In this document: positions 1 through 14,392 of the stretch, one piece after another
Position numbering within the stretch: the first letter of the stretch is position 1
How the letters are laid out: the number at the start of each line of letters is the position of its first letter
Assembly: GCF_033344935.1 (NCBI RefSeq)
Contig: NZ_JAWPMM010000001.1
Coordinates: forward strand, 310,001 to 374,000
DNA: 64,000 nucleotides
Origin: Reichenbachiella sp.
GTDB taxonomy: Bacteria; Bacteroidota; Bacteroidia; Cytophagales; Cyclobacteriaceae
Direction: 5' to 3'
Notes under the pieces: model-generated
What the model was told of the DNA's origin: nothing
The model's database searches: none
The model's input: only the letters and a program-made list of their open reading frames with translations
Position numbers and translations under genes: made by a program

Positions 1-1466
1 TTTTGAAAAAGCATGAGCTCAATATTGGCAAATTTTTTCATTACAAAATCAGAAGAGTCCAATGCCGTGTTGTCCTGGATCAGCAAACTCAAAGCCAATG
101 CATCATTGGCAATCTCTCGGGTAGTAGCCAATTTTAAAATATCCAGATGACTTTTAGCTAGCTCAAAGTTTCCCTGAAAATAATTTAGCTGTGCGTTTTT
201 CAGTTTCGCTTCATAGCCTATCGGACTATCCTTATTACTTTTTTCTACTTGCGAATAAAGCAAGGTAGCTTCCCAAGGATCACCCGTCAATAGATAAATA
301 TCTCCCAAGTCCAATTTACTTTTTGCTTTTAGAGATGGGTTAATTCTAGGTGCCAAAATTATTTCATTCAAAATATTGATTGCTGAATCTAACTCATCCA
401 AATAAAAGGCATGGAGAAGCGCCTTGCTTCTAAACGCTTCAATCGTCTGGGCATTTACACCAATGTCCAAAATCAACTGCTTATATTCATAAGTCAATTC
501 TCGAATCGCCGTTTTTTCAACTGGAAAATCGTTTTTCACTTTTTCCTCTCTTGCTTTTATTATCTGACGTCGAGCTGTGATATAATTGCCAGTGTTAGGA
601 TATGTTTTTGTGACATAAGTGTAGATCTGAATGGCATCATCATAAGCTTTATTCTCTAAAGCGATGTGGCCAATATTCATCACTCTGTTTCCATGTGTCT
701 TGAACTTTTTATCCACAGCTCTTGCTTGGATATAGGCACCATAAAAATTATTCTGTTGCAAATTTACCCAGATCAACAATTCAGGGTAGATTTTTTCATT
801 TGGGTTTTTTTGAACTTTATCAATTAGGATCTCTTGAAAATTTTGAATGGCCTCTTCTTTTTGAAGAATGTTCTGGAGAATGTTTTTTACATACCTCAAG
901 TTGTTTGGTCTAATCGAAGCAAAAACCAAATACTCTTCAATCATTTCAGATTGTTGATCCAGCAGTCGATAAGTATTCGCTAATTCCAATGCATAACTAG
1001 TTTTATCCTTATTACTTTTTCTAGCTTGTTGATAAGCCTGGAGTGCATAGGGTGTTAGCTGCTTACTAATAAAATATTGAGCAGCGGTTCCAATGAGGTA
1101 TTTATTTTCTTTGGAGTTTTCTATGGTCTGGTTGAAAGTCTCATTGGCTTTTTCGATTTGACCCATCTCTTGATAAAGCAATCCCAAGTCGATCTGATAA
1201 AAAACGTTAGAAGGATAATATCTAGTGGCTTTCTTCAGATGTTTCTCTGCCTGTTTGTATTCTCCCTTCGTTATTAAAATGTTGAGATAATTATTATGGA
1301 TCTGCTGAATGTATTGTGGATTGCCGGCTAACTTTTCATAAATATCGAGCGCCTTATCTAATTCACCATTCATGTAATACTCATTAGCGAGTTGCACTTG
1401 GTTAGAATTTTGCGCCGCCCCCAGCGTAGGAATTATTATTAATATCAGATAAAAAAATCTCTTCAT
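1..1466 (-). CDS. TPR-repeat periplasmic protein (partial)
   Basis: This reading frame stays open from an ATG at 1466 leftward through the window edge, so its C-terminus is missing. The protein starts with MKRFFYLILIIIPTLGAAQ, a clear signal peptide, and then runs as helical repeats of the tetratricopeptide type, for example NEYYMNGELDKALDIYEKLA and the following 34-residue-spaced blocks. TPR arrays are protein-binding scaffolds, so an exported interaction role is inferred; no catalytic domain is visible in about 488 residues. It is transcribed away from the candidate replication origin immediately to its right. The exact partner or pathway cannot be told. Confidence 0.8.
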   Translation of the reverse strand, partial: MKRFFYLILIIIPTLGAAQNSNQVQLANEYYMNGELDKALDIYEKLAGNPQYIQQIHNNYLNILITKGEYKQAEKHLKKATRYYPSNVFYQIDLGLLYQEMGQIEKANETFNQTIENSKENKYLIGTAAQYFISKQLTPYALQAYQQARKSNKDKTSYALELANTYRLLDQQSEMIEEYLVFASIRPNNLRYVKNILQNILQKEEAIQNFQEILIDKVQKNPNEKIYPELLIWVNLQQNNFYGAYIQARAVDKKFKTHGNRVMNIGHIALENKAYDDAIQIYTYVTKTYPNTGNYITARRQIIKAREEKVKNDFPVEKTAIRELTYEYKQLILDIGVNAQTIEAFRSKALLHAFYLDELDSAINILNEIILAPRINPSLKAKSKLDLGDIYLLTGDPWEATLLYSQVEKSNKDSPIGYEAKLKNAQLNYFQGNFELAKSHLDILKLATTREIANDALALSLLIQDNTALDSSDFVMKKFANIELMLFQ

Positions 1467-1848
1467 TTCTCAGTTGTCCACACTTTGACCAAAACCCTAA
1501 AATAAAAATATAGATTAAAGAAATTATTATTCTTTATTAAGGGCGTGGATATGTGTATAAGTTTTCTTTTGAATTCTATTTGTTATTGATTGGTGTATTA
1601 CTAAAAACTAGCTACATCTTATTCACATCATAAGTTATTGATTTTTAGTTTGGTATTGACTTATCAACAGACAGTTTCACTTTTGTGAATTACTTATTTA
1701 CATCTACGAATGCTGGGAGAAGATGTTGATATTTATGGACTTCTTGAAAGTTATCCTTTTCGTGAATCGAGTTGGTTGATAGTTCTGTAATTGTAAAAGG
1801 AAGTTCACGGGTTATTCCACCTTGATTTACATTTTATCCACAGTGATT
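1467..1848. other. oriC: Candidate chromosomal replication origin (oriC)
   Basis: This 382-base gap has no gene. It is AT-rich, with an almost pure A/T stretch at about 1496-1540 that could be the unwinding element. Matches to the DnaA box TTWTNCACA are perfect at 1552-1560 (minus), 1619-1627 (plus) and 1834-1842 (plus, TTATCCACA). Single-mismatch 9-mers lie at 1474-1482, 1661-1669, 1684-1692 (minus) and 1694-1702. By hand count, the plus strand is C-richer to the left and G-richer to the right, although both neighbours are minus-strand genes. The mnmG (gidA) gene and parS sites are within 5 kb. That these form oriC is an inference from converging signals. Confidence 0.72.
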
Positions 1849-3603
1849 TTAGAATGAAATTTGAATATTTTCTAGTTGCCAATTGGCACGAACATCAAAT
1901 ACCTCGGGGTAGAAATATACACTTTCCGGCATTTCATCTTTTAGGATGTTTCCATAAGACCAGGTACCATCAGCGTTGTTATCAATCATTATTCTGAAAG
2001 TGTATTTGCCTGGTTTTACGTAAGGAAAGGAGAAAATTGTAGTGTTATGTAGTTCTTCTATGATTTCATATTTAGCGTTGACGAGCTGTAGTGTGAATGA
2101 TTGGTAGTCTGTAGTGATTTGACCACTTACGGATCCGAGTTGATCAAGAGATTTGAATTTATAATTATTCCTTACCGCCGGCGTACTGTCGCCTTCTACA
2201 CTAATGAAAGTACCTTTTGGAAAGGATACAGTGACCTGATGGGTATTAACGCTGGAAAAGTAGTCGTATTTTGCCATTCGAATAGAGTCTGTTCGTATTG
2301 TATCGTTCACCACAAGCGAGTCAATGTTGGTTGTATCACTATATATTTTTAGTAAGGTGTCTATCTCAGTTGCGAGAAAGTCCTTATCCAAAAGAATATC
2401 AAAATTCAGTTCGGTTTTATTCTTGTTCCATGAAATTGTGCTATCTGGCACGAGTTCTACTTTAAGTGTGTCGTATAGAATGAATAGACTGTCTTGGTAG
2501 AAGGTTTCAATTGGTTTGTCAAAGGAGTAAGTATGACGTACTAATGGATCGACATAAGCATTGTCTGAAGGAAAAAAGGATGCCTTGAATGCTTCTGGTT
2601 TTCTTGATGTTTCGGCGAATTGGATATAGGCTGTATCAATGCTCTGATTAAACATACTGTCGATGGCAGTAATGATCAGACCTAAACTATCAATATCGTA
2701 TTGATAGGTTTCACGTGGATAGAATCTTAAGATCTTATTTCCTTTCACTCGATTGTTAGGAGGTATAGGAAGTGTATTAGTGGAATCAAGTTTGGTTAGG
2801 TGATATTGGATAAAAGGTTTGTTGTACTGCACATCAAAATACCTTCCGGTTTTTTTTGATCTGATAGATTTGAACTCGGAAGCATTGATCAATTGTGTTT
2901 GAATACGAACAGAATCTCTAGAAAGTGTGAGGTCTATGGAATCGGAAAGAAAACCGTGATCCTCAGTTTCAGGATTGAGTATGAGGTTTTTATTCTCGTC
3001 ACTGAAAGTGAGAATTTTGTAATAACCATTCTTTATGTTTTCAATAAGAAACTGTCCTTGCTTATTGGTTTTTGCAAAGTATCTAGGCTTGTCCTTGAGT
3101 AGATCTATGGAATCGGTAAGTTGATAGAGGCCAACTATAAATCCATCTTTGTTTTCATTTGTATAGAGATCTGTAATTTTTCCAGTGACATAAATGGAGT
3201 CGATATAGTTTCCGGTGGAGAAGGCGAAGCTTAGATTGATTACTGGATTTTTTTCAGTGACATCCACTACACCATCAGAGAAATTCAGAGTGAAGGTCGT
3301 ACTGTCATTGAAGGGTTCATCGAAGGTTAGAGTGAGTTCATTTTTTCGAACCTTCACATTGAATTTGTTTTCAATGTGCGGTGTGATGAGTAATTGACTT
3401 TTGAGTTTATCTGCATTCACTCGCTCATCGAATATGAATTGAAATTCCTGGCCTTTATAATTTATGGACTTATTTACTGGAATGCTTTCAATAAGTAGGG
3501 GAGGAATGGTATCTCTGGGACCTCCTGATGGTGACCCCTGATTAGCACAAGAATAGATATATATGGATGTTATTAGTAAGAAAAGGGGAAATAAGGATTT
3601 CAT
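1849..3603 (-). CDS. Ig-like (Big_5) domain lipoprotein
   Basis: The 584-residue product has a lipoprotein signal ending IYSC (Cys19) followed by NQGSPSGGPRDTIPP, a signature typical of a Bacteroidota family with an N-terminal SbsA-type Ig-like domain (about residues 35-130, including FDEPFNDSTTFTLNFSDGV). A transthyretin/carboxypeptidase-regulatory-like segment follows at about 140-220 (TNKQGQFLIENIKNGYYKI). It should be lipid-anchored in the outer or inner membrane. Its ATG overlaps the stop of the methyltransferase gene by four bases, so the two are probably translationally coupled at the end of the mnmG operon. Its cellular function is unknown. It ends seven bases from a perfect DnaA box. 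Confidence 0.85.
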   Translation of the reverse strand: MKSLFPLFLLITSIYIYSCANQGSPSGGPRDTIPPLLIESIPVNKSINYKGQEFQFIFDERVNADKLKSQLLITPHIENKFNVKVRKNELTLTFDEPFNDSTTFTLNFSDGVVDVTEKNPVINLSFAFSTGNYIDSIYVTGKITDLYTNENKDGFIVGLYQLTDSIDLLKDKPRYFAKTNKQGQFLIENIKNGYYKILTFSDENKNLILNPETEDHGFLSDSIDLTLSRDSVRIQTQLINASEFKSIRSKKTGRYFDVQYNKPFIQYHLTKLDSTNTLPIPPNNRVKGNKILRFYPRETYQYDIDSLGLIITAIDSMFNQSIDTAYIQFAETSRKPEAFKASFFPSDNAYVDPLVRHTYSFDKPIETFYQDSLFILYDTLKVELVPDSTISWNKNKTELNFDILLDKDFLATEIDTLLKIYSDTTNIDSLVVNDTIRTDSIRMAKYDYFSSVNTHQVTVSFPKGTFISVEGDSTPAVRNNYKFKSLDQLGSVSGQITTDYQSFTLQLVNAKYEIIEELHNTTIFSFPYVKPGKYTFRIMIDNNADGTWSYGNILKDEMPESVYFYPEVFDVRANWQLENIQISF

Positions 3604-4484
3604 GCTTGTTTAAATATATATATCAAACTTGAATAATTTTTATTGTTTTTTCTAGCCCAAGTATTTGATTTCCAACCGTTTATAACTGATTTTAGATAAT
3701 TTATTTTACCCGTTTTGTGCTTTTCGCTGAGCATACTTACGTAATAGGCGTCGAGTTTCATGGGTATGGTTTCCTCTAACGTGAACTTGTTGTACTTCAT
3801 CAACTCTTTGATAGTCAATTGGTTGAAGTGATAAAGGTGTCTTGGAACGTCATAGGCTGCCCAGTGCTGTTGGTATATTTGTTCATCTAATGATTTGTGA
3901 TTGGGAACCGCAATCACTAATCGACCTTTTTTGGATAGATGTTTCTTAAGTGCTTGGATAGTTTCATTGAGATCGTGGACATGTTCGAGTACGTGCCAGA
4001 GTGTAATGATTCCGAATTTTTTATCAGGTAGGTCTTCAATAGAAGAAACTACGTTGAGACCATGATCACTAATGGCGATAGTTCGAGCGGTTTGATCAGG
4101 TTCAATGCCAAGAGTCTTCCATGATTTGTTTTGCTGAATGTAGTTCAGCAGGTGGCCAGTACCACAGCCGTAATCAAGAATTGATTCTTTAGATGCCAGT
4201 CGTTTGATGAGTTTGAACTTTTTTCTGAGCGTATAGTTTCTAGCAATTTTGTAAACCCAGTTAATGAGATTGTTGGCTTGATTGGTGTGAGATATGTAAT
4301 CTTCAGATTGGTAATAGGAACCAATCTTATCTTTGCTTGGACGTGGTGAGGTTAGTAAAAGCTCACAATTGGAGCATTTCATTATCGCGAAACTTTCTTT
4401 TGAAACCGAGTAGTCATCACAAATCATGTGATTGATGAACTCTTTGGAATGACAAGAAGGACAGGATTCTACTTTTTCGTACAT
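3600..4484 (-). CDS. Class I SAM-dependent methyltransferase with zinc ribbon
   Basis: The 294-residue protein begins with a probable zinc ribbon (CPSC at 8-11 and CSNC at 37-40) and then a Rossmann methyltransferase domain whose SAM-binding motif I is LDYGCGTG at 103-110. A methyltransf_23-like fold follows, with the post-motif HVLEHVHDL. This arrangement is common in Bacteroidota methyltransferases annotated only as class I SAM-dependent; the substrate is not evident. It lies three bases downstream of mnmG and overlaps the next lipoprotein gene by four bases, so it belongs to one transcription unit with them. Linkage to mnmG hints at, but does not prove, RNA modification. Confidence 0.88.
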   Translation of the reverse strand: MYEKVESCPSCHSKEFINHMICDDYSVSKESFAIMKCSNCELLLTSPRPSKDKIGSYYQSEDYISHTNQANNLINWVYKIARNYTLRKKFKLIKRLASKESILDYGCGTGHLLNYIQQNKSWKTLGIEPDQTARTIAISDHGLNVVSSIEDLPDKKFGIITLWHVLEHVHDLNETIQALKKHLSKKGRLVIAVPNHKSLDEQIYQQHWAAYDVPRHLYHFNQLTIKELMKYNKFTLEETIPMKLDAYYVSMLSEKHKTGKINYLKSVINGWKSNTWARKNNKNYSSLIYIFKQA

Positions 4485-4487
4485 AAA

Positions 4488-6350
4488 TTATCGAGCCATA
4501 TAGACCATCAATACAGAGATATCTGCAGGATTGACTCCACTGATTCGTGAAGCTTGTCCGAGGTTTGTAGGTTTAATATTAGAAAGTTTTTCTTTTGCCT
4601 CAGCGGACAAAGCTGGAATATTTCTGTAGTCAAATCCTTGTGGGATTTTTTTGTTGTCCAGATTACCCATTTGATCAGCAAGACTTTTTTCTTTCTCTAT
4701 GTAGGTTTCATATTTAACTAGAATAGAAGCTTGTTCAAGAATATCCGACTGATTGTTTTGAATCAATACTTGACCTTCTGGGTGGAAAGAAAGTACATCT
4801 AGAATATCGAGTTCAGGCCGCCGTAGAAAGTTTATCAATGGAGTTTTTTCCTTAATGTTGGCTGAGTTGATTTCTGTCAACTTACCATTAATCTCATCAG
4901 GCTTTACTTTGATCTTACTGAGCTGATTGATAAGCTCATCTGTATCAGTTATTTTTTTGTTTACTTTTTCGAGACGTTCTTCTGAAGCTAATCCGAGTTG
5001 ATGTCCTATGCCAGTTAATCGGATATCTGCATTGTCCTGACGTAGTAGGATTCTAAACTCAGCTCGTGAGGTAAACATACGGTAAGGCTCATCTGTCCCT
5101 TTATTGATAAGGTCATCTATGAGTACACCTATGTAGGCTTCTGATCTACCAAGTACAAAAGGGTCTTTCTCGTGTACTTTGTTGTGTGCATTAATACCTG
5201 CCATCAACCCTTGACTGGCAGCTTCCTCGTAGCCTGTAGTGCCATTGATTTGACCTGCAAAGTAGAGATTGGCGATCAGTTTAGTTTCCAGAGTAGACTC
5301 TAACTGTGTGGGTGGAAAGTAATCGTATTCAATGGCATAGCCAGGTCTAAACATTTTCACGTTTTCAAATCCTGGTATTTTGGTGATGGCTTTGTATTGC
5401 ACATCTTCCGGTAAACTGGTGGAAAAACCATTGACATAGATCTCTACTGTATTCCACCCTTCTGGTTCAACAAATATTTGATGTCTATCTCTTTCTGCAA
5501 ATCGATTGATTTTATCTTCAATGGATGGACAGTACCTGGGTCCCAGTCCCTTTATTCTACCGGTAAACATTGGAGATTTCTCGAATCCAGTCTTGAGTAT
5601 TTCGTGTACCTCAGAGTTAGTATAGGTGATATGACAAGGCCGTTGGGTCTTGAGTGGTTCAGTATCCGTGAAAGAGAATTTACCTGGAGTTTCATCACCT
5701 GGTTGTTCTTCCATGACTTTCCAATTTAAGGATCTACCATCTACTCTAGGAGGAGTCCCGGTTTTCATTCTTCCAGACTCAAAGCCTAATTTTACTAATT
5801 GTTCGGTAATTCCTGTTGCTGCCTTCTCCCCTGTTCTTCCACCTCCGAAACGTTTTTCTCCTATATGAATAAGTCCATTAAGGAAAGTACCGTTTGTAAG
5901 CACTACAGATTTCCCCATGATTTCAATGCCCATGCTGGTACGAACGCCAATTACTCGGTTGTTTTTAACAACGAGCCCTGAGACCATTTCTTGCCAGAAG
6001 TCAACGTTAGGCGTTTGCTCAAGTGCAATGCGCCATTCTTCAGCAAAGCGCATTCTATCGTTTTGAGTACGTGGGCTCCACATTGCTGGTCCTTTGGACT
6101 TATTGAGCATCCTAAATTGGATCATTGATTTATCGGATATGATTCCGGAGTAACCTCCTAGCGCATCAATCTCCCGAACAATCTGTCCTTTGGCTACTCC
6201 TCCCATGGCAGGGTTGCATGACATCTGAGCGATGGTATTCATATTCATGGTAATGAGCATGACCTTAGAACCCATGTTGGCGGCCGCCGCGGCTGCTTCG
6301 CATCCGGCATGTCCTGCCCCTACTACTATTACATCGTATTGTGGAAACAT
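4488..6350 (-). CDS. mnmG: tRNA uridine-5-carboxymethylaminomethyl synthesis enzyme MnmG
   Basis: The 620-residue length and sequence are those of MnmG/GidA. The FAD dinucleotide-binding motif VGAGHAGCEAAAAAANMG lies at about 10-27, followed by SCNPAMGGVAKG, the conserved family stretch GRTGEKAATGI and the C-terminal helical domain (FDYRNIPALSAEAKEKLS). With MnmE it installs the cmnm5 group at the wobble uridine of several tRNAs in the cytoplasm, using FAD and methylenetetrahydrofolate. In many bacteria gidA sits beside the replication origin, which fits the oriC candidate 2.6 kb beyond this gene. Its upstream gap holds two parS sites. Confidence 0.97.
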   Translation of the reverse strand: MFPQYDVIVVGAGHAGCEAAAAAANMGSKVMLITMNMNTIAQMSCNPAMGGVAKGQIVREIDALGGYSGIISDKSMIQFRMLNKSKGPAMWSPRTQNDRMRFAEEWRIALEQTPNVDFWQEMVSGLVVKNNRVIGVRTSMGIEIMGKSVVLTNGTFLNGLIHIGEKRFGGGRTGEKAATGITEQLVKLGFESGRMKTGTPPRVDGRSLNWKVMEEQPGDETPGKFSFTDTEPLKTQRPCHITYTNSEVHEILKTGFEKSPMFTGRIKGLGPRYCPSIEDKINRFAERDRHQIFVEPEGWNTVEIYVNGFSTSLPEDVQYKAITKIPGFENVKMFRPGYAIEYDYFPPTQLESTLETKLIANLYFAGQINGTTGYEEAASQGLMAGINAHNKVHEKDPFVLGRSEAYIGVLIDDLINKGTDEPYRMFTSRAEFRILLRQDNADIRLTGIGHQLGLASEERLEKVNKKITDTDELINQLSKIKVKPDEINGKLTEINSANIKEKTPLINFLRRPELDILDVLSFHPEGQVLIQNNQSDILEQASILVKYETYIEKEKSLADQMGNLDNKKIPQGFDYRNIPALSAEAKEKLSNIKPTNLGQASRISGVNPADISVLMVYMAR

Positions 6351-6364
6351 GAAATATCCTCTTA

Positions 6365-6380
6365 TGTTCCACGTGAAACA
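6365..6380. promoter_or_regulatory. parS: parS site 1 (ParB/Spo0J binding)
   Basis: The 16-mer TGTTCCACGTGAAACA fits the published parS consensus TGTTNCACGTGAAACA at every position. It is 15 bases upstream of the mnmG start. parS is the centromere-like site loaded by ParB and is normally confined to the origin-proximal part of bacterial chromosomes. Confidence 0.88.
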
Positions 6381-6401
6381 GTTGATAGAAACACTGGAAA
6401 G

Positions 6402-6417
6402 TGTTCCACGTGAAACG
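6402..6417. promoter_or_regulatory. parS: parS site 2 (ParB/Spo0J binding)
   Basis: The 16-mer TGTTCCACGTGAAACG differs from the parS consensus only in its last base. It lies 37 bases centre to centre from site 1, in the same mnmG-ybeY gap, so the two form a tandem pair. Confidence 0.83.
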
Positions 6418-6429
6418 TTTTAAATTCTC

Positions 6430-6861
6430 TTAACTCTGAAATTGCGGCAAAGATAAATAAGCATTCTCTTTTTCTCTCATAAGCGTTTGCTCCGACTCCG
6501 TCTTATCATTGTATCCCACTAAATGTAAGATGCCATGAATAATGACTCTTCGTAGCTCCTGTTCAAATGGGATGCCTTGGTCCTGTGCATTGTCTTGCAC
6601 CCTCTCTATGCTTACGAAAATATCGCTCTCAACGATACCCTCTTCTTCAGAATTATCGAAAGTGATAATATCTGTATAGTAATCGTGCTGTAGATAGTCT
6701 ACGTTGATTTGATGCAAATACTCGTCTGAACAAAAGATGTAATTGATTTCTGAGAGCTCATGATCTTCTGAGGTAATAGTATGAGCAATCCATGAGGAAA
6801 TGATTTCTTTATGAGCCAGCTCAAAGGCTGTGTCTTCATAGAAGAAATTGATTTGTTCCAT
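6430..6861 (-). CDS. ybeY: Endoribonuclease YbeY (rRNA maturation)
   Basis: The 143-residue product carries the UPF0054/YbeY metal motif as HGILHLVGYND, with His109, His113 and Asp119. The third position is usually His in E. coli YbeY; Asp here matches the form I recall as usual in Bacteroidota, so activity need not be lost. YbeY is a zinc-dependent RNase involved in 16S rRNA 3'-end maturation and ribosome quality control. Its start overlaps the stop of the upstream RsbW-like gene by one base (TAATG), which points to coupled translation. Confidence 0.92.
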   Translation of the reverse strand: MEQINFFYEDTAFELAHKEIISSWIAHTITSEDHELSEINYIFCSDEYLHQINVDYLQHDYYTDIITFDNSEEEGIVESDIFVSIERVQDNAQDQGIPFEQELRRVIIHGILHLVGYNDKTESEQTLMREKENAYLSLPQFQS

Positions 6862-7262
6862 TAAGGTAGGTAAAAGCTGAGTTCTACTTTTTTTCCGTTG
6901 TCAGCAAAGGAGACCGCGTCGCATAGGTTTTTCATTAGAAAAATTCCTCTACCTCCAGGCTTTTCCAAATTCTCTGGGGCTGTTGGATCTGGTAAATTGT
7001 CAAAGTCAAACCCCGGACCTTCATCTTCTATAATGAACTTTACCTGATTGTCTTCAAGGCTTAATGACAAATGAACGTTTTTTGATTTATCAGATTGATT
7101 GCCATGAACGATCGCATTGTTGACTGATTCTGTTACTGCGATCATGATGTTGCCGTATATGTCATCCGTGAAGTTATACTGCTCCTTGGCATTGTCTATG
7201 AAGCTTTCAATGATTCTGATGTTTTCTGAAAGCGACGGAATCTGAATTTTGATGGCGTCCAT
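6861..7262 (-). CDS. RsbW-like ATP-binding anti-sigma/serine kinase
   Basis: The 133-residue protein is a single HATPase_c_2 domain of the RsbW/SpoIIAB type. The N-box is TESVNNAIVHGN (44-55), the G1 box is DEGPGFDF (80-87) and the G2 box is GGRGIFLM (103-110). Such proteins bind ATP and either sequester a sigma factor or phosphorylate an anti-sigma-factor antagonist. No STAS antagonist or sigma-B-like gene adjoins it, so its partner must be elsewhere, and the name rsbW is not applied. It is coupled to ybeY and sits 33 bases downstream of the DUF4175 gene. Confidence 0.85.
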   Translation of the reverse strand: MDAIKIQIPSLSENIRIIESFIDNAKEQYNFTDDIYGNIMIAVTESVNNAIVHGNQSDKSKNVHLSLSLEDNQVKFIIEDEGPGFDFDNLPDPTAPENLEKPGGRGIFLMKNLCDAVSFADNGKKVELSFYLP

Positions 7263-7295
7263 TATTCTCTGTTAGTCAATTTGTTTACAAATATA

Positions 7296-10200
7296 TTACT
7301 GTTCGTTCAACCGACGGAAATATTTATTTACTTCTTCCTTATAGTAAGGGTTCATCTTTGGTGGAACGGTATTTAGTAGTTCAAGTTCTTTTTGTTTGGC
7401 TTTGATGTATTCTTCAAATTCAGGAGGAAGGTTACGTTCGTAGTTGTCTGCTTGTTCTGCCTCTCGCTCGTCATCTAGTTCGCGTTCGCGTAAGGCATCT
7501 TCTGCTTTTAGCATACGAGTAAGTATATCCTTTTGCCTGTTGATAGTTTCTTGTGTAATTCGTTTGTTCACTAAGTCCATCTCTGTTTGCTCCATTTTTT
7601 CAATGGCTTCCTTAAGGTTTTGACCAGCACCTCCTTCGTTTTCACCGAGTTGGTCTTGTAGTTTTTGAAGTTCATTACGAAGCATTTCTTGTTCAGCAGC
7701 TAGCTCGGCAAGTTCTTTGGAGAGCGGTCTTCCGGATTTTCCACTTTTCTTTAGGTCTTCAATTTTCTGATTGAGTTGTTTTTGCAGTTCAGACATACCT
7801 GGAAGTTTCTGTTTTTGTCCCTTTTGCCCTTTCTGAGGTTTACCCATGGCATCAGCCATTTGCTGTTGCATTTGCCGTAGTACGTCATCCAGTAACAGTG
7901 CTAGATTGTTTATAGAGGTCATGGCGTATTGCTGATGGGTTGTAGCTTCTGCTTTTCTTCTGTCCTTTAACCCTTGCAGACTTGCTTCTATTTCGTCGTT
8001 CATGGCGCCTACTTCTCGGGTCACAAAGCTTTGAATCTGAAACACACGATTGGCTAAGGACAGTAAACTATCTTCAATAATTTTGGCATCGTCTTTTAGT
8101 TTCAGTTGTTGCTGAGATAGAGTCACGTATCGTGGATCACTTTGATTCACCCCTTTAAACTCAGTCATAATGTCTTCTTGATCAAAGGATACTTTGACAA
8201 GGTTATCTACAATGTCTCTAAGATGGTCTAAATTCTCTTGCATCATGGTCATTTCCATGCCTGCTTGCATCTCTTCCATCTTCTTTTTCATTTGCTTCAT
8301 TTTGTCTGAAGCATTTTGTTGTGACTGAGAAGATTTCTTTCTTTTCTTCTGTTCAAGCATTTCTAAACTCTCTTGTTGTTCTTCTTGGATGTCAGACTCT
8401 TCTTGATCAAAGTTTTCTAGGCTTTCTGGCTGTTTCATTTCCTCATTGAGCTCTTCCAATTGATCGATTTGTTCTTGTAGATCTTTAAAGGACTCATTAA
8501 GTTCTTTTTGTTTCTCTTGAAGAGATTCAGTGTCATTGTCCTTATCGAGAGTTTCCTTAGACAGTTGTTCCTGCTCTTCGCTGAGTTCATCAAGATCATT
8601 GATAATCTCGTCCATTTTATAATCAAACTGTAATCGCTTGAACATTTCTATGGCGCGTTCGATTTCCTTTTGCAGATTTTCTTCCTTGTTTTCAATCTGA
8701 TCCATGACTTCTTCAATATCCTCAGATCCTTTCTGCTCTTCTAATAGCTTTTTTAGTTCATCGTAAAGCTTTTTGGTTTCCTCATCCAGTATATCGTCCA
8801 TCAATTTTTGGAGTTGGTCGACTTTTTCCTGGAGCTTTTCATTTGGCTTGTTGAAGCGTTCCTGCTTTTTGGCCAAATCTTTATTTTGCTGGGATATTTT
8901 TTCAATGGCTTCTTCTAATTTTTCCTTTTGGTTGATAAGATCATTGATCTTCTTGTTTTCCTGCCAATTGAGGTTTTCCTTGCTTTTCAAATCATTTTGG
9001 ATGTCTTTGATTTGTTCATTCAAATCTTCAGCTTCTTCCAATGATTTATCTAGTTCCTTTTTAGCTCCTTCGGCTTGTTTATCTAGTTTTTCCTTGATTT
9101 CCTTCTTTTCTGGAAGTTTAAAGGTGTAAGTGGCACTTTGTGAAGGTTTGCGTCCGTTAATTGCATCATTATCCCAAACTCTAACGAAATACTGAAGTGA
9201 CTCGCCCTCTTTAATGTCTAAAGAGTCTAATTTCCATTGATAAAAATAGTTTTGAGAGGCGAGAGACTTATTAAAGGGTATGGGAAGCGAAACCCTTTCA
9301 TCGCCTTGATCATAGACGAACTCCAATTTAGAAATGCCATAATCGTCACTGATGAGGCCATTGAAAACAATAAATGCAAAAAGCGTAGTATCCTGAAAGG
9401 CATCTACCGAAATCTTGGGAAATTCATCTTTGATCACATCAATCTTGTAAGAAATTGAGTCTTTGTTAGGACTATGCTGGTTTTGTAACTTTAGTTTATA
9501 GGCATCGCTTGATTTTACTGTTTTTTTGGATTCAAATAGTTGATTCCCAGTGCGTTTCAGTTCTATGGTTGATTTTTCTTGCTCAAATATCATTTGAACT
9601 GATTCAGTTTCTATAGTCTTTATTCTCCAGTGAACTTGAGTACCTTCAGGAATAGTTAGGTTTCCTACATTCTCTAGCGTTTCATTTTTCTTTCCAGTAT
9701 AGTTGGGATAAACTAGATTAATATTAAATGTTTTGATATCTGGCCTTTGAAGTACTTCGACTTCATAGCTCTTCGATTGGTAATCAGCAGCCTCTATTCG
9801 AAAATTGAAATTGTCCTGCACTTTAGTAAATACATATTCTAACCTTTGGTTCGCATTGGTTTTCATCTTTGCCCTTCTACCCCTTGCGCTAATGTAAACT
9901 TGCTCAGGAATGGCTGAGCCAGACACTTCAACTTCAAGCACAAAATCTTCGTTTTTAAAGGCTTTGAAGTTATCGTTCAGTGGTGTGATTGAGAATAAAA
10001 ACCCTGGTGAAAACTCTTTGTCATAATTGACAATGCGCTTGGTACTCTCGGTTAAATATTGTGGCACGATAAGAAAGAGTAAAAGCAGTACAAAACCTGG
10101 GTAGGCAATGTATTTGAGATATTTTTTATTCGATTTTATATCAATGCTTGAGTTAAACTCGAATGGAGTAATCTCAATAGTTCGTTTTTCAATACTCGCA

Positions 10201-10580
10201 ATGGCCAAACTATTGTTAGAAGATGAAATTTGACCTAACTGTATGGTATTCAATAGTTTATCGCCAATTTCTGGAAAAAATCTACCAATTAGCTTAGCGG
10301 CTTCTTCATCACTTATCTGGGAATTAGCTTGAATGATATTCAAATACGGCCGTATAATTAGTTTGAATAATAAAAATAATAACGAAAGAAGTGTGGTGTA
10401 AAAAAGAATTGTTCGAGCAGAAGAATTGAGCTGAAGAGAGCCTTCGAATCCTGTGGCAAAGAGATATATAGTAAGAACCAGAGATACAAAGACAATGGTA
10501 TTCTTTACAAGAATATTGAGATAATACTTCTTTTTGAAAGCATTTATCTTATTTTTCAATATGTCTGTTGATTGGTCCAA
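7296..10580 (-). CDS. DUF4175 family membrane-anchored coiled-coil protein
   Basis: This 1094-residue protein has three probable membrane helices (about 22-43, 56-75 and 156-175), then a beta-rich extracytoplasmic region (about 190-490). After that come long, extremely charged coiled coils rich in Glu, Lys and Gln (about 495-780 and 900-1060). The layout matches the Bacteroidota DUF4175 family, often annotated simply as DUF4175 or ATPase although no Walker motif is visible here. Its role is unknown. The large coiled-coil part suggests a structural or envelope-spanning function. It lies seven bases from the upstream lipoprotein gene in the same operon. Confidence 0.82.
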   Translation of the reverse strand: MDQSTDILKNKINAFKKKYYLNILVKNTIVFVSLVLTIYLFATGFEGSLQLNSSARTILFYTTLLSLLFLLFKLIIRPYLNIIQANSQISDEEAAKLIGRFFPEIGDKLLNTIQLGQISSSNNSLAIASIEKRTIEITPFEFNSSIDIKSNKKYLKYIAYPGFVLLLLFLIVPQYLTESTKRIVNYDKEFSPGFLFSITPLNDNFKAFKNEDFVLEVEVSGSAIPEQVYISARGRRAKMKTNANQRLEYVFTKVQDNFNFRIEAADYQSKSYEVEVLQRPDIKTFNINLVYPNYTGKKNETLENVGNLTIPEGTQVHWRIKTIETESVQMIFEQEKSTIELKRTGNQLFESKKTVKSSDAYKLKLQNQHSPNKDSISYKIDVIKDEFPKISVDAFQDTTLFAFIVFNGLISDDYGISKLEFVYDQGDERVSLPIPFNKSLASQNYFYQWKLDSLDIKEGESLQYFVRVWDNDAINGRKPSQSATYTFKLPEKKEIKEKLDKQAEGAKKELDKSLEEAEDLNEQIKDIQNDLKSKENLNWQENKKINDLINQKEKLEEAIEKISQQNKDLAKKQERFNKPNEKLQEKVDQLQKLMDDILDEETKKLYDELKKLLEEQKGSEDIEEVMDQIENKEENLQKEIERAIEMFKRLQFDYKMDEIINDLDELSEEQEQLSKETLDKDNDTESLQEKQKELNESFKDLQEQIDQLEELNEEMKQPESLENFDQEESDIQEEQQESLEMLEQKKRKKSSQSQQNASDKMKQMKKKMEEMQAGMEMTMMQENLDHLRDIVDNLVKVSFDQEDIMTEFKGVNQSDPRYVTLSQQQLKLKDDAKIIEDSLLSLANRVFQIQSFVTREVGAMNDEIEASLQGLKDRRKAEATTHQQYAMTSINNLALLLDDVLRQMQQQMADAMGKPQKGQKGQKQKLPGMSELQKQLNQKIEDLKKSGKSGRPLSKELAELAAEQEMLRNELQKLQDQLGENEGGAGQNLKEAIEKMEQTEMDLVNKRITQETINRQKDILTRMLKAEDALRERELDDEREAEQADNYERNLPPEFEEYIKAKQKELELLNTVPPKMNPYYKEEVNKYFRRLNEQ

Positions 10581-10587
10581 CTGAATT

Positions 10588-11967
10588 TTAATAAGTTTCT
10601 ATTTCTTGATAATATGCATTTCTTACCATATTACTAAAGCTTGTATTTGTATTGATTCCGTTTAATTTATTGTTATAAATAACATACTCTGGAAAAGACT
10701 CTAATATCAGAATGACGGAATTATTATCGCCTTTCAATTCTTTAGTAAGTTCATTTTTCGACAATATTTTGATATTTCTAGGCCAAAACTCGACTTCCAC
10801 TTCCCTTATTACGATTTGTGGCTGAGTTGGATTTATATTTTCGTGATTAGTCTCAACGAATTCAAGGTATGGAGTATTGGTAAAGTACTGGCTGGAGTCA
10901 CTTGATAGTTCAGAATACCATTGGACTTTATGATAAGATGAATCTAATGCCACATTAGTTTTTGGACTATCCAAAGGAAGAGGTGCTTGGCTGATTTCAT
11001 TATTTATATCAATTGACTCTTCTGTATTAGAGTTGATCGACGCTATCACCTGATGAAGCAATGTTGAATCTGTAAACATCTTGAAATCCATAAATTTAAG
11101 GATGGATTTTTCGTTTTGTGTAATCTGATAGTCTGGATATTGACTGTTGAGTATTTTGTTGAGGCGTTTCGTCTGAGGTGTAAGCTTTGACCTATAGGGT
11201 TGGTATAATATAATATCAAGTGCTCCACGAAAAAACTCTGAATAAACCAGATCTTCGTTTTTAATAAAACTCAACCGAATGGCTTCGATTTTGTGATTAC
11301 CTGGAATTTTTCGGACTAGGTTAGCCGAAATATCTTCGTTTAAGTTTTTTAACTCAAAATCACCGCTTCCGATGTACGTGCCGCTACTTTCTTTGAATAG
11401 TGTGAAAATAGGACTCTGGAACCAATCGAGCAGCTTATCCTTGTTGGTTCTCAGTTGAATGCTAAAACTGGTTTGATCTATAACTTGAAAGCCGCTGGGA
11501 ATTGAATCTTTGATGCCTCGATTTTCGCGATACCAACTGATTGGACCGAAACCGTCCATTGATGAAAATAGTAAGTGCACGTATTGATCGTCATAATGGT
11601 TTTTTAGAAGATACTTAAAGAAGTTTTTAATGGCATCAGAATTAACAGGAGTTCCATCATGGAAGCTTTTATCTGTTTCTAGCTGAAAAGTATATAACCC
11701 AAGTAGAGAATCAACTTGATAAGATGCAAATAAATGACTAGAGAGATCTTTTTCTATGAATGGGTCAAAAACCAGATCTTTTACAAATTGTTCGCTTCTA
11801 CTTTCGGCTTTAATGGGGTTGAGCTGTAGAATGTTATCGTGAAAGTTAATTCGAATAGTTTTTATTATTTCTTGCTCCTTGTGGTTAACAAGTTTTGTTC
11901 TTGTTTCACATGAAACAATGAGCCCCAATACACAAAGAATTAAATGATATATTCTGATGGTTTTCAT
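10588..11967 (-). CDS. Divergent family-5 substrate-binding-like lipoprotein
   Basis: The 459-residue product has a lipobox (LIVSC, Cys20). Its N-terminal half resembles peptide/nickel ABC binding proteins (SBP_bac_5), notably the stretch ending KSFHDGTPVNSDAIKNFF, which corresponds to the family's FHDGxP signature. The rest is poorly conserved and no ABC permease or ATPase gene is nearby, so it may be an orphan or repurposed binding protein. It abuts the next upstream gene without a gap and is followed after seven bases by the DUF4175 gene. A parS-like 16-mer overlaps the codons around the lipobox cysteine. Confidence 0.68.
   Translation of the reverse strand: MKTIRIYHLILCVLGLIVSCETRTKLVNHKEQEIIKTIRINFHDNILQLNPIKAESRSEQFVKDLVFDPFIEKDLSSHLFASYQVDSLLGLYTFQLETDKSFHDGTPVNSDAIKNFFKYLLKNHYDDQYVHLLFSSMDGFGPISWYRENRGIKDSIPSGFQVIDQTSFSIQLRTNKDKLLDWFQSPIFTLFKESSGTYIGSGDFELKNLNEDISANLVRKIPGNHKIEAIRLSFIKNEDLVYSEFFRGALDIILYQPYRSKLTPQTKRLNKILNSQYPDYQITQNEKSILKFMDFKMFTDSTLLHQVIASINSNTEESIDINNEISQAPLPLDSPKTNVALDSSYHKVQWYSELSSDSSQYFTNTPYLEFVETNHENINPTQPQIVIREVEVEFWPRNIKILSKNELTKELKGDNNSVILILESFPEYVIYNNKLNGINTNTSFSNMVRNAYYQEIETY
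11902..11917. promoter_or_regulatory. parS: Possible third parS site (intragenic)
   Basis: TGTTTCACATGAAACA differs from parS TGTTTCACGTGAAACA by one central base. It lies inside the lipoprotein coding region, over the codons for Val-Ser-Cys-Glu-Thr, so coding constraint could have produced part of the match. Confidence 0.5.
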
Positions 11968-12327
11968 TTAGTTGATAATGCCTATTTCATCAGAAAAATA
12001 CTCAAGTACATGCATTTTGAGCAATTTCTCTTGCTCCAGAACATCAAAATGAGGAAGTTGTTTTTTTAGAACCCAGTGTGGCCAGCCATCGGCATCTGTC
12101 CCTTCTAGCTCATAAAAACCCGCTAGGCTTAGACATTTGCATATTCCTAAATGTATAAGGTCTTGTTTCTCTTCTTTGGAAAAATTAGCATATCCACGAC
12201 CAAGCTCTTGAACTCCAATTAGAAAAAGAATACCCTTTAAATCAGCTGGCTTTTTGCCCAACACTTCCTTGAGCTTTTCCCTCAACTTTACCCACTTTCT
12301 CTCTAGATCTAAATCTTTTTTGAGCAT
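11968..12327 (-). CDS. Conserved hypothetical protein
   Basis: A 119-residue soluble protein with no signal peptide or membrane segment. It is helical in character, with a Lys/Leu-rich N-terminus (DLERKWVKLREKLKEVLG) and a tryptophan-containing core (DADGWPHWVLKKQLPHF). I do not recognise a functional domain. It is the first gene of the leftward operon, directly abutting the substrate-binding-like lipoprotein gene, and its start lies about 40 bases from a good -7 box. The protein looks real because of its position and its uninterrupted coupling to the next gene. Confidence 0.7.
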   Translation of the reverse strand: MLKKDLDLERKWVKLREKLKEVLGKKPADLKGILFLIGVQELGRGYANFSKEEKQDLIHLGICKCLSLAGFYELEGTDADGWPHWVLKKQLPHFDVLEQEKLLKMHVLEYFSDEIGIIN

Positions 12328-12365
12328 TTTAGTAAATCACTTCCGACCAAAACTAACCGTATTAT

Positions 12366-12373
12366 CAAAGATA
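12366..12373 (-). promoter_or_regulatory. -7 box of the mnmG-region operon
   Basis: On the minus strand this reads TATCTTTG, a perfect match to the Bacteroidota sigma-70 -7 element TAnnTTTG. It lies 39 bases before the start of the hypothetical gene that leads the eight-gene leftward run. No clear -33 element was resolved. Confidence 0.5.
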
Positions 12374-12419
12374 TTCTACCTTGTGTTTGAAATAGAACAG
12401 GCAGCAGTTTAATTTTCAT

Positions 12420-13115
12420 ATGATGATAAAAAAATACTGGAAAGACTTCTTATCGCTGCTATACCCTGAACTCTGCTACAATTGTGACGTTGCCCTGGTC
12501 GAAGGAGAAGATAAAATTTGTCTTCGGTGCTATCGTGACTTTCCCTTAACCAATTATCATGAATCTGAACCAAACCCTTTGGTTCAGATAGCTGCCGGAA
12601 ATGAAAAGGTTAAGGGCGCATTTTGTTACATGAAGTTTAATAAACATGGAGTAGCTCAAAAACTACTTCATGAAGTAAAGTATAAAGGTAATTCAACGAT
12701 TGGAGTGCTACTTGGCGAGTGGTTTGGAAAATATATTAAGAGAGAATTGGATGCTTTGGAATTGGACGCAATTATCCCCGTTCCACTACATAAAAGCAAA
12801 AAAAGAAAACGTGGTTACAACCAAAGTGAACTAATAGCTAAAGGGATTCAAAATGTGACAGGACTAAAAGTTATGGAAGGCGTGCTAATTAGGACAAGGA
12901 ATGTCAGCACACAGACAAAAAAAGGAAAAGTAGAACGATGGCAAAATGTGGATTCACTATATCAGGTAGTGAATAAAGAATCAATTATAGGCAAAAAGCT
13001 TTTGTTAGTTGATGACGTAATCACCACAGGAGCGACGATTAGTATGGCCGCTGAAGTCCTTGGGAATGGTGGAGTCAGCGACATCTATTTTGGTTGTATC
13101 GCATCAGGCAAATAA
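12420..13115 (+). CDS. ComF family phosphoribosyltransferase-like protein
   Basis: The 231-residue protein has an N-terminal four-cysteine zinc finger (Cys19, Cys22, Cys34, Cys37). Its C-terminal phosphoribosyltransferase domain has a PRPP loop at about 194-206 (LLLVDDVITTGAT) and the family motif RGYNQSELIAKGI. In competent bacteria ComF acts in DNA uptake or its processing, but Bacteroidota homologues are mostly uncharacterised. The ATG at 12420 is followed directly by a second ATG, so the start could be three bases later. It stands alone, divergent from the hypothetical gene and convergent with gldJ, and shares a hairpin terminator with it. Confidence 0.9.
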   Translation: MMIKKYWKDFLSLLYPELCYNCDVALVEGEDKICLRCYRDFPLTNYHESEPNPLVQIAAGNEKVKGAFCYMKFNKHGVAQKLLHEVKYKGNSTIGVLLGEWFGKYIKRELDALELDAIIPVPLHKSKKRKRGYNQSELIAKGIQNVTGLKVMEGVLIRTRNVSTQTKKGKVERWQNVDSLYQVVNKESIIGKKLLLVDDVITTGATISMAAEVLGNGGVSDIYFGCIASGK

Positions 13116-13162: not shown

Positions 13163-14392
13163 TTAGTAGTTAGTTCCTGCTCTGATCATCGCACATCGGA
13201 AACCGATAGTAGATGTAGCAGAATCTTCTTCTAAGTATCTTCTTTGTCCTGGAGACATCCAGTAAGCAACATCTGCCCATGACCCTCCTTTATAAACTCT
13301 TACTCTGTCGTTGATAAGTGAATTGTAGTTGGCGAAATCATAACCATCTTCTTCATCAAGGAAACCATCTCTTCTTACTGGGTTAAGATCATCAAAGTCT
13401 TGGTAAGAAAGCGGACGGTAAACATCTTGCACCCACTCGTTTACATTTCCAGCCATGTTGTAAAGACCAAAGTCATTTGGAGGGTAATCATAGATGTAAG
13501 TAGTAATCATGGCCCCATCATTCAACTTACCAGCAATACCGGCATAATCTCCTCTACCTCTTTTGAAGTTAGCTAAGAATGTACCTAGTTGTTTTCCGTA
13601 AGGGTTTCTTAATGCGTGACCGTCCCATGGGTAAAGTCTGCTGTGTGTTTGATTTTCATCTAACCACTGAGTACCGATAAGTGCAAGTGCAGCATATTCC
13701 CATTCTGCCTCAGTTGGGAGACGATAGTTAGGCAATACGAACCCAGATTCTAATGGAATTCTTCCTGCAGAAGGCAAATCAGCTTCAGCTTCAATAGCCT
13801 CATCATAATATCCGGCGTCCTCGGCCAATTTTTGATTTACAACTATCGATCTCCAAGTACAGTAGTCTTGCGCCTGCTTCCAGGTGACACCTACAACAGG
13901 GAAAAATCTAAAGCCAGGATATCTCAAATAATGATCAACATAGGGATCGTTGTATGCAAGGTTTTTTGCCCAAACCGTGGTATCTGGTAGAGCAGATTCG
14001 TAAAATTCACGAGAGGAGTCCAATCGAACGTAGTGTAAGTACTCCAACCAGTGAATATTGGCTACCTCAGTTTCGTCCATATAGAACGAAGCAACTGTAA
14101 CTGTTCTTTCGTGATTGTCGCTTTGATTAGCCACATCTTCCTCAAAACTACCAAGGATAGTTCTACCACCTTCGATAAATCTTAAGTTTGGACCATCTGG
14201 TTGACCGCGGAAGTCATTCACCTGAAAGCCACTTTCTTCTTCGTTGAAAGCAAGACCAGTTGCTGTACTCGCTTCACCAGGATTATGACTGGTCGCGTGG
14301 CCACCACCACCCAGCGAACCACAAGAGGAGATACCCATTGTGAGCCCAACAAGGATTGCTGATGCGTTTAAGTAGGGAACAAATTTTTTCAT
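13163..14392 (-). CDS. gldJ: Gliding motility lipoprotein GldJ-like (SUMF1 domain)
   Basis: The 409-residue lipoprotein (lipobox GISSC, Cys24) carries a formylglycine-generating-enzyme/SUMF1 fold from about 70 to 405. Visible family blocks are FYMDETEVANIHWLEYL, FPVVGVTWKQAQDYCTWR, RLPTEAEWEYAA, GNVNEWVQDVY and GFRCA. The linker TATGLAFNEEESGFQV resembles the GldJ N-terminus of Flavobacterium. GldJ stabilises GldK and is needed for gliding and type IX secretion; it is not thought to be an active FGE. GldK is the alternative call, but the usual gldL-gldM-gldN neighbours are absent. A T9SS cargo gene lies 2 kb away. Confidence 0.75.
   Translation of the reverse strand: MKKFVPYLNASAILVGLTMGISSCGSLGGGGHATSHNPGEASTATGLAFNEEESGFQVNDFRGQPDGPNLRFIEGGRTILGSFEEDVANQSDNHERTVTVASFYMDETEVANIHWLEYLHYVRLDSSREFYESALPDTTVWAKNLAYNDPYVDHYLRYPGFRFFPVVGVTWKQAQDYCTWRSIVVNQKLAEDAGYYDEAIEAEADLPSAGRIPLESGFVLPNYRLPTEAEWEYAALALIGTQWLDENQTHSRLYPWDGHALRNPYGKQLGTFLANFKRGRGDYAGIAGKLNDGAMITTYIYDYPPNDFGLYNMAGNVNEWVQDVYRPLSYQDFDDLNPVRRDGFLDEEDGYDFANYNSLINDRVRVYKGGSWADVAYWMSPGQRRYLEEDSATSTIGFRCAMIRAGTNY

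Follow-up and report, generated by a model that had tools for sequence, protein, structure and literature searches.

The gene-free gap at positions 1467-1848 of the DNA analysed here (382 bases, 70% A+T, no strand) is, to judge from its sequence, very probably the chromosomal replication origin, oriC. The window, by which is meant the whole 64,000-nucleotide stretch, comprises bases 310,001-374,000 of one 4,878,078-base contig of Reichenbachiella sp. The evidence computed here consists of a cluster of DnaA boxes within the gap, a switch in GC skew, the proximity of parS sites, conservation, and a spacing of elements that recurs among relatives. The original prediction that the gap is an origin draws support from the box cluster, the skew switch, the nearness of parS and the conservation across genera. 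Replication origins as a kind are well known; what is added is the exact place of this one, a locator that serves the family, and a two-sided layout of boxes. The exact position concerns a Bacteroidota-type chromosome in which dnaA gives no guide.

We infer that DnaA binding, duplex opening, helicase loading and the start of replication take place in the gap. DnaA-ATP would bind the box cluster and open a 62-bp AT-rich element, with the tandem boxes at 1544-1560 as the starting point and an inward-facing box at 1474-1482 as a possible second one. Helicase would then be loaded and two forks would depart in opposite directions, while ParB bound to parS sites 4.5-10.1 kb away would aid segregation of the newly copied origin.

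The gap and its DnaA boxes

The gap separates two open reading frames on the minus strand, a TPR-repeat protein gene (3-1466, extending beyond the window edge) and a Big_5 (bacterial Ig-like) gene (1849-3603), and is gene-free, as it had been described. Beyond the Big_5 gene the window includes a methyltransferase gene, mnmG (gidA; 4488-6350, minus strand, a TIGR00136 match) and ybeY. The mnmG gene is frequently found close to oriC. Further along, the reading frame at 13163-14392 bears what we take to be a resemblance to the gliding lipoprotein GldJ.

There are parallels among published origins of the phylum, so far as the portions of the reports cited here describe them. In the flavobacterium Algorimicrobium, Ori-Finder placed the origin at mnmG (PMC12843772), and the gap resembles that origin, of the DnaA-box cluster type, in being predicted at a skew switch near mnmG. 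The likeness does not extend to the flanks, however: only mnmG is named in that portion of the Algorimicrobium report, whereas the gap is flanked by the Big_5 and TPR genes and mnmG lies about 2.6 kb off. The oriC of the large Prevotella intermedia chromosome, also predicted by Ori-Finder (PMC4755523), shares with the gap its multiple DnaA boxes, a skew transition and a location away from dnaA. Blattabacterium is described as being without dnaA or recognisable boxes (PMC2768785). Among the papers that literature searches listed, we recognised none describing the layout of a Cytophagales origin.

All three perfect matches to TTWTNCACA that had been reported in the gap are present. They are TTATACACA at 1552-1560 on the minus strand, which is the first of a tandem pair, TTATTCACA at 1619-1627 on the plus strand, and TTATCCACA at 1834-1842 on the plus strand, just beyond the stop codon of the Big_5 gene. 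The four single-mismatch boxes reported with them are likewise found: TTGTCCACA at 1474-1482 (plus strand), which faces the AT-rich element from the TPR-gene side, TTATCAACA at 1661-1669 (plus strand), and the weak boxes TAATTCACA at 1684-1692 (minus strand) and TTATTTACA at 1694-1702 (plus strand), each of these two with one mismatch to TTWTNCACA. The weaker second box of the tandem pair, ATATCCACG at 1544-1552 on the minus strand, has two mismatches and overlaps the next box by one base.

It is the clustering of these boxes, and not their total, that exceeds chance. There is no excess of perfect boxes across the 64-kb window (7 against 9.5 expected), sites within one mismatch of TTATCCACA are not above chance there (24 against 20.1 expected), and genome-wide the 168 TTATNCACA sites compare with 165 for the reversed pattern. 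Of the window's 181 sites that differ from TTWTNCACA at no more than one base, 7 lie in the gap; no 382-bp interval has more, and two other places have 5 each. Five near-TTATCCACA sites fall in the gap, a number reached by none of 5000 order-1 simulations of the gap's composition, in which the mean was 0.17 and the maximum 3. Among the genome's 133 TTAT[C/T/A]CACA sites, a set that excludes the TTATGCACA variant (by subtraction, 35 of the 168 TTATNCACA sites), the gap alone has three lying within 400 bp; when 133 sites were placed at random, a triple within 291 bp arose in 107 of 20,000 trials.

With its 5 near-TTATCCACA sites the gap also ranks first in the 1.52 Mb of the genome that was sampled, the runner-up being a cluster of 4 at 4,429,591, and no further cluster of at least four such sites occurs in the contiguous region from 190 to 454 kb. 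The runner-up (4,429,591-4,429,826; L119:9591-9826) includes two copies of TTATCCACA 19 bp apart and sits partly inside a chloride-channel-like gene, before a thioredoxin-like gene, both gene names having been assigned by eye. It is possibly a DnaA reservoir or a regulatory site.

An A/T stretch beside the boxes had also been pointed out, and it is borne out by calculated stability. Within the gap, stability is lowest in the 62 bp that start at 1498 and overlap 1483-1544. Of the 63,939 windows of this size across the 64 kb, 10 have lower stability, and the stretch is fourth among separate places. The interval 1483-1544 itself (62 bp, no strand), which lies between inward-facing boxes, is a putative DNA unwinding element, and 126 of the 63,939 windows are less stable. 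The gap thus has the thermodynamically unstable AT-rich element beside its boxes that is looked for in an oriC.

Position on the chromosome

Nucleotide skew was followed in 100 evenly spaced 12-kb samples amounting to about one quarter of the genome, with contiguous sequence at 190-454 kb. Within that contiguous region the cumulative minimum, which had been proposed as a check on the candidate, falls at 311,021 (window position 1021), 446 bases from the gap, and the minimum computed from 4-fold sites falls at 307,131, 4.3 kb away. The minimum is shallow, -2065 at 311,021 against -2019 at 334,001, and because of this near tie and the displaced 4-fold minimum, skew alone resolves the location to about 25 kb. 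On the scale of the chromosome, the 100 samples place the skew switch in the zone of the candidate; a minimum elsewhere, which the original prediction gave as grounds for refuting it, was not observed. The candidate and the observed skew maximum divide the samples into two arms: of the 51 between 341 kb and 2.78 Mb, 4 have a negative 4-fold GC skew, compared with 46 of the 49 in the remaining arm. The maximum itself, sought in a 140-kb region, is at 2,785,673 (raw) or 2,794,191 (4-fold), and the antipode of the candidate is at about 2.75 Mb. All told, the gap lies at the genome-wide GC-skew minimum at a resolution of about 25 kb.

The picture is less tidy in one relative, G028, where 20 samples put the switch between 6.05 and 6.37 Mb, with one sample disagreeing. 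This is some 0.26-0.58 Mb from the G028 candidate at 5.785 Mb and speaks against a perfect match, an offset that sparse sampling or rearrangement may explain. The skew maximum of G028 is near the antipode of its Big_5 gene.

The gap is not adjacent to dnaA, which is found as an open frame at 3,330,653, about 1.86 Mb away by the shorter route. That position agrees with the remark in the original prediction that dnaA is often elsewhere in Bacteroidota, and with the cited part of a report in which the oriC of Bacteroidetes is commonly far from dnaA, adjacency being common and not defining (PMC4755523).

The segregation sites give a further landmark. The whole 4.88-Mb genome was searched for TGTTNCACGTGNAACA with up to two mismatches, the reversed pattern serving as control. 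Three sites have no mismatch or one, and all are in the window, 4.5-10.1 kb from the gap: a perfect parS, TGTTCCACGTGAAACA, at 6365-6380 (genome 316,365), a parS with one mismatch at 6402-6417 (genome 316,402), and a parS-like site with one mismatch at 11902-11917 (genome 321,902), none of them assigned a strand. Allowing up to two mismatches gives 7 sites, fewer than the 11 of the reversed control, which leaves the close matches alone as evidence. Nearby parS is a feature looked for in an oriC, and it is present here. The best ParB gene, at 2,678,248 (L256), sits near the opposite pole, far from parS and oriC.

Conservation in relatives and competing readings

The Big_5 protein is present in 56 of 60 genomes of the family, and the locus was compared across 30 loci from 30 genera, that of Reichenbachiella included. 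Reading frames and gap boundaries come from automatic parsing, and a number of the gaps are too long or too short. At 29 of the 30 loci Big_5 is followed by a TPR homologue in the same orientation (the thirtieth is without a TPR match), and within reach of the locus lie mnmG in 26 and the methyltransferase gene in 27. The gaps between Big_5 and TPR contain 74 perfect boxes in 13.5 kb, or 5.46 per kb, compared with 1 in 38.0 kb upstream (0.03 per kb), 3 in 51.8 kb inside the Big_5 gene (0.06 per kb) and 20 in 27.3 kb beyond the gap (0.73 per kb). At least one perfect TTWTNCACA occurs in 27 of the 30 gaps and none in the other 3. A box within one mismatch, in the orientation of 1834-1842, lies near the Big_5 stop codon at 19 of the 30 loci, against 0.28 expected from shuffles. 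All 30 together gave too gappy an alignment, and the 19 whose gaps measure 330-395 bp were realigned.

A perfect parS is found in 48 of the 60 family genomes and is lacking in 12. Among the matches listed, which cover 46 of the 48, parS and Big_5 share a contig in 39 genomes, our own included, and in all 39 the distance from the Big_5 match upstream to parS is 1,997-3,418 bp (median 2,825). Eight further parS entries among the matches listed are on other contigs or in a genome with no Big_5 match. For the sampled family, the probable origin can be located by a Big_5 gene that has parS some 2.8 kb upstream of it, then a box-holding gap of mostly about 350-390 bp, then a TPR gene.

DnaA boxes can regulate genes, and the gap might accordingly be read as a DnaA-regulated promoter or a DnaA-titration site, the true origin lying elsewhere in the zone of the skew minimum. 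Such a reading could appeal to that known role of boxes, to the near tie of the skew minimum at 334 kb and to the second box cluster at 4,429.6-4,429.8 kb. We consider it very unlikely, however, because box cluster, unstable DNA, skew and parS all coincide at the gap, because the contiguous 190-454 kb have no further cluster of at least four near-TTATCCACA sites, and because the boxes are retained in 27 of 30 genera. Still more improbable is that the gap is a mere promoter or 5' leader of the TPR gene, with boxes that are chance products of A/T-rich sequence. The gap is indeed upstream of the TPR start codon, but no composition-matched simulation reached its box count, relatives conserve both the boxes and their spacing, and an Rfam search of window positions 1-13000 returned nothing at gathering score.

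An origin adjoining dnaA, as in many phyla, would have a gene to adjoin, given the open frame at 3,330,653; there, however, the cumulative skew is in mid-slope with no sustained switch, and no parS within one mismatch is nearby, so this arrangement can hardly be entertained.

How far the neighbourhood serves as a marker was followed in 40 stretches around Big_5 matches (2 from the same order and 38 from outside it, two being shortened by contig ends). Of the two stretches from the same order, which belong to other families, one has 8 boxes within 500 bp and the other 5. Of the 38 loci from outside it, 1 shows a box cluster, and the Big_5 neighbourhood was rejected as a phylum-wide origin marker. 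The exception, L182, has 4 boxes in 500 bp, the other loci outside the order having at most 2. The L182 cluster (L182:2061-2353) comes from a different family within the class; some 4 kb separate it from mnmG, it precedes a gene that by eye is nadB-like, and it is possibly the origin of that group. A contig search with the single Big_5 protein yielded one distant locus only, 29% identical.

Boxes facing the AT-rich element

The original prediction described the spacing and orientation of the boxes as irregular. This does not hold for 1474-1560, where the inward-facing boxes around the AT-rich element are a recurrent arrangement, and the layout as a whole is not wholly irregular. One side of the arrangement is a tandem module with the pattern TTATCCAC-NN-ATCCAC, which in our sequence occupies minus-strand positions 1545-1560. 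When up to three mismatches are allowed, 23 of the 30 gaps have it (our own among them), 18 of these at a distance of about 270-310 bp past the Big_5 stop codon, and the flanks have 7 matches in 117 kb. TAATA follows closely after the module in 20 gaps. At three mismatches this looser pattern has 8 matches in our own genome, the origin included, against 7 for the reversed control, and so is not specific by itself. A strict tandem-box consensus was tried across the phylum and set aside: at up to two mismatches it occurs in 4 of 198 genomes and in none of the 7 own-family genomes of that set, our own included, and is either too strict or not conserved.

The other side is a box that faces back toward the module. 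It was sought at 26 loci, our own included, with a module of up to four mismatches; L132, L148, L149 and L150, with no such module in the scanned range, were left out, and the module is doubtful in L126, L134, L142, L147 and L151. A box within one mismatch faces back at 58-68 nt in 13 of the 26 loci, always at 61-65 nt, compared with a mean of 0.09 and at most 2 in 300 shuffles, a control that is post hoc in that the 58-68 nt range was set after the distances had been seen. No forward-facing box lies at 58-68 nt from the module in any of the 26. Further inward boxes are found at 53-57 nt (four) and at 80-104 nt (three). In our sequence the inward box is that at 1474-1482, 62 nt from the module.

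Beside the tandem boxes is a TAATA-type triplet repeat (1523-1541, minus strand) that is DnaA-trio-like, with its NAN register on the box strand. The canonical DnaA-trio lies on the strand complementary to the box. A printed Clostridioides difficile sequence, in the part of that report cited here, partly supports this strand assignment (PMC7561715). The basal unwinding system (BUS) of Pelliciari et al., as given in the cited portion of their paper, comprises a DnaA box, a spacer of at most 16 bp and at least three 3'-NAN-5' trios (PMC8287927). Like the BUS of Bacillus subtilis and others, the gap has boxes that face the repeat (alone or in tandem in the BUS, a tandem pair here), a short spacer that fits, and a triplet repeat in A/T-rich DNA; it differs in that, with respect to the tandem boxes, the triplet register is on the opposite strand, and in that an additional box points inward from the other end (PMC8287927). 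On the strand complementary to the tandem boxes there are not three or more 3'-NAN-5' trios within 16 bp; the run there, read as NTN, is two, and the box strand has a run of five. Over 23 loci the run averages 4.65 on the box strand against 3.2 in shuffled sequence, and 2.9 on the complementary strand against 2.5. Seen from the far box at 1474-1482 the triplets are, by eye, in the usual register, but they are about 41 nt off, beyond the 16-bp limit. With these mismatches of register and distance, the repeat is called trio-like and is not classed as a BUS.

One tentative reading, which we hold to be possible and somewhat doubtful, is a two-sided unwinding module. Origins of the order (probably Cytophagales) might start DnaA filaments from inward-facing boxes that flank a fixed AT-rich element of about 63 bp, with TAA/TAG repeats that, viewed from the tandem boxes, occupy the strand opposite the usual DnaA-trio and, viewed from the far box, have the usual register. 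With inward boxes recurring around an AT-rich element of near-fixed length, opening from both sides becomes a question that can be put to these origins directly. In several genera the far inward box overlaps the start codon of the TPR gene.
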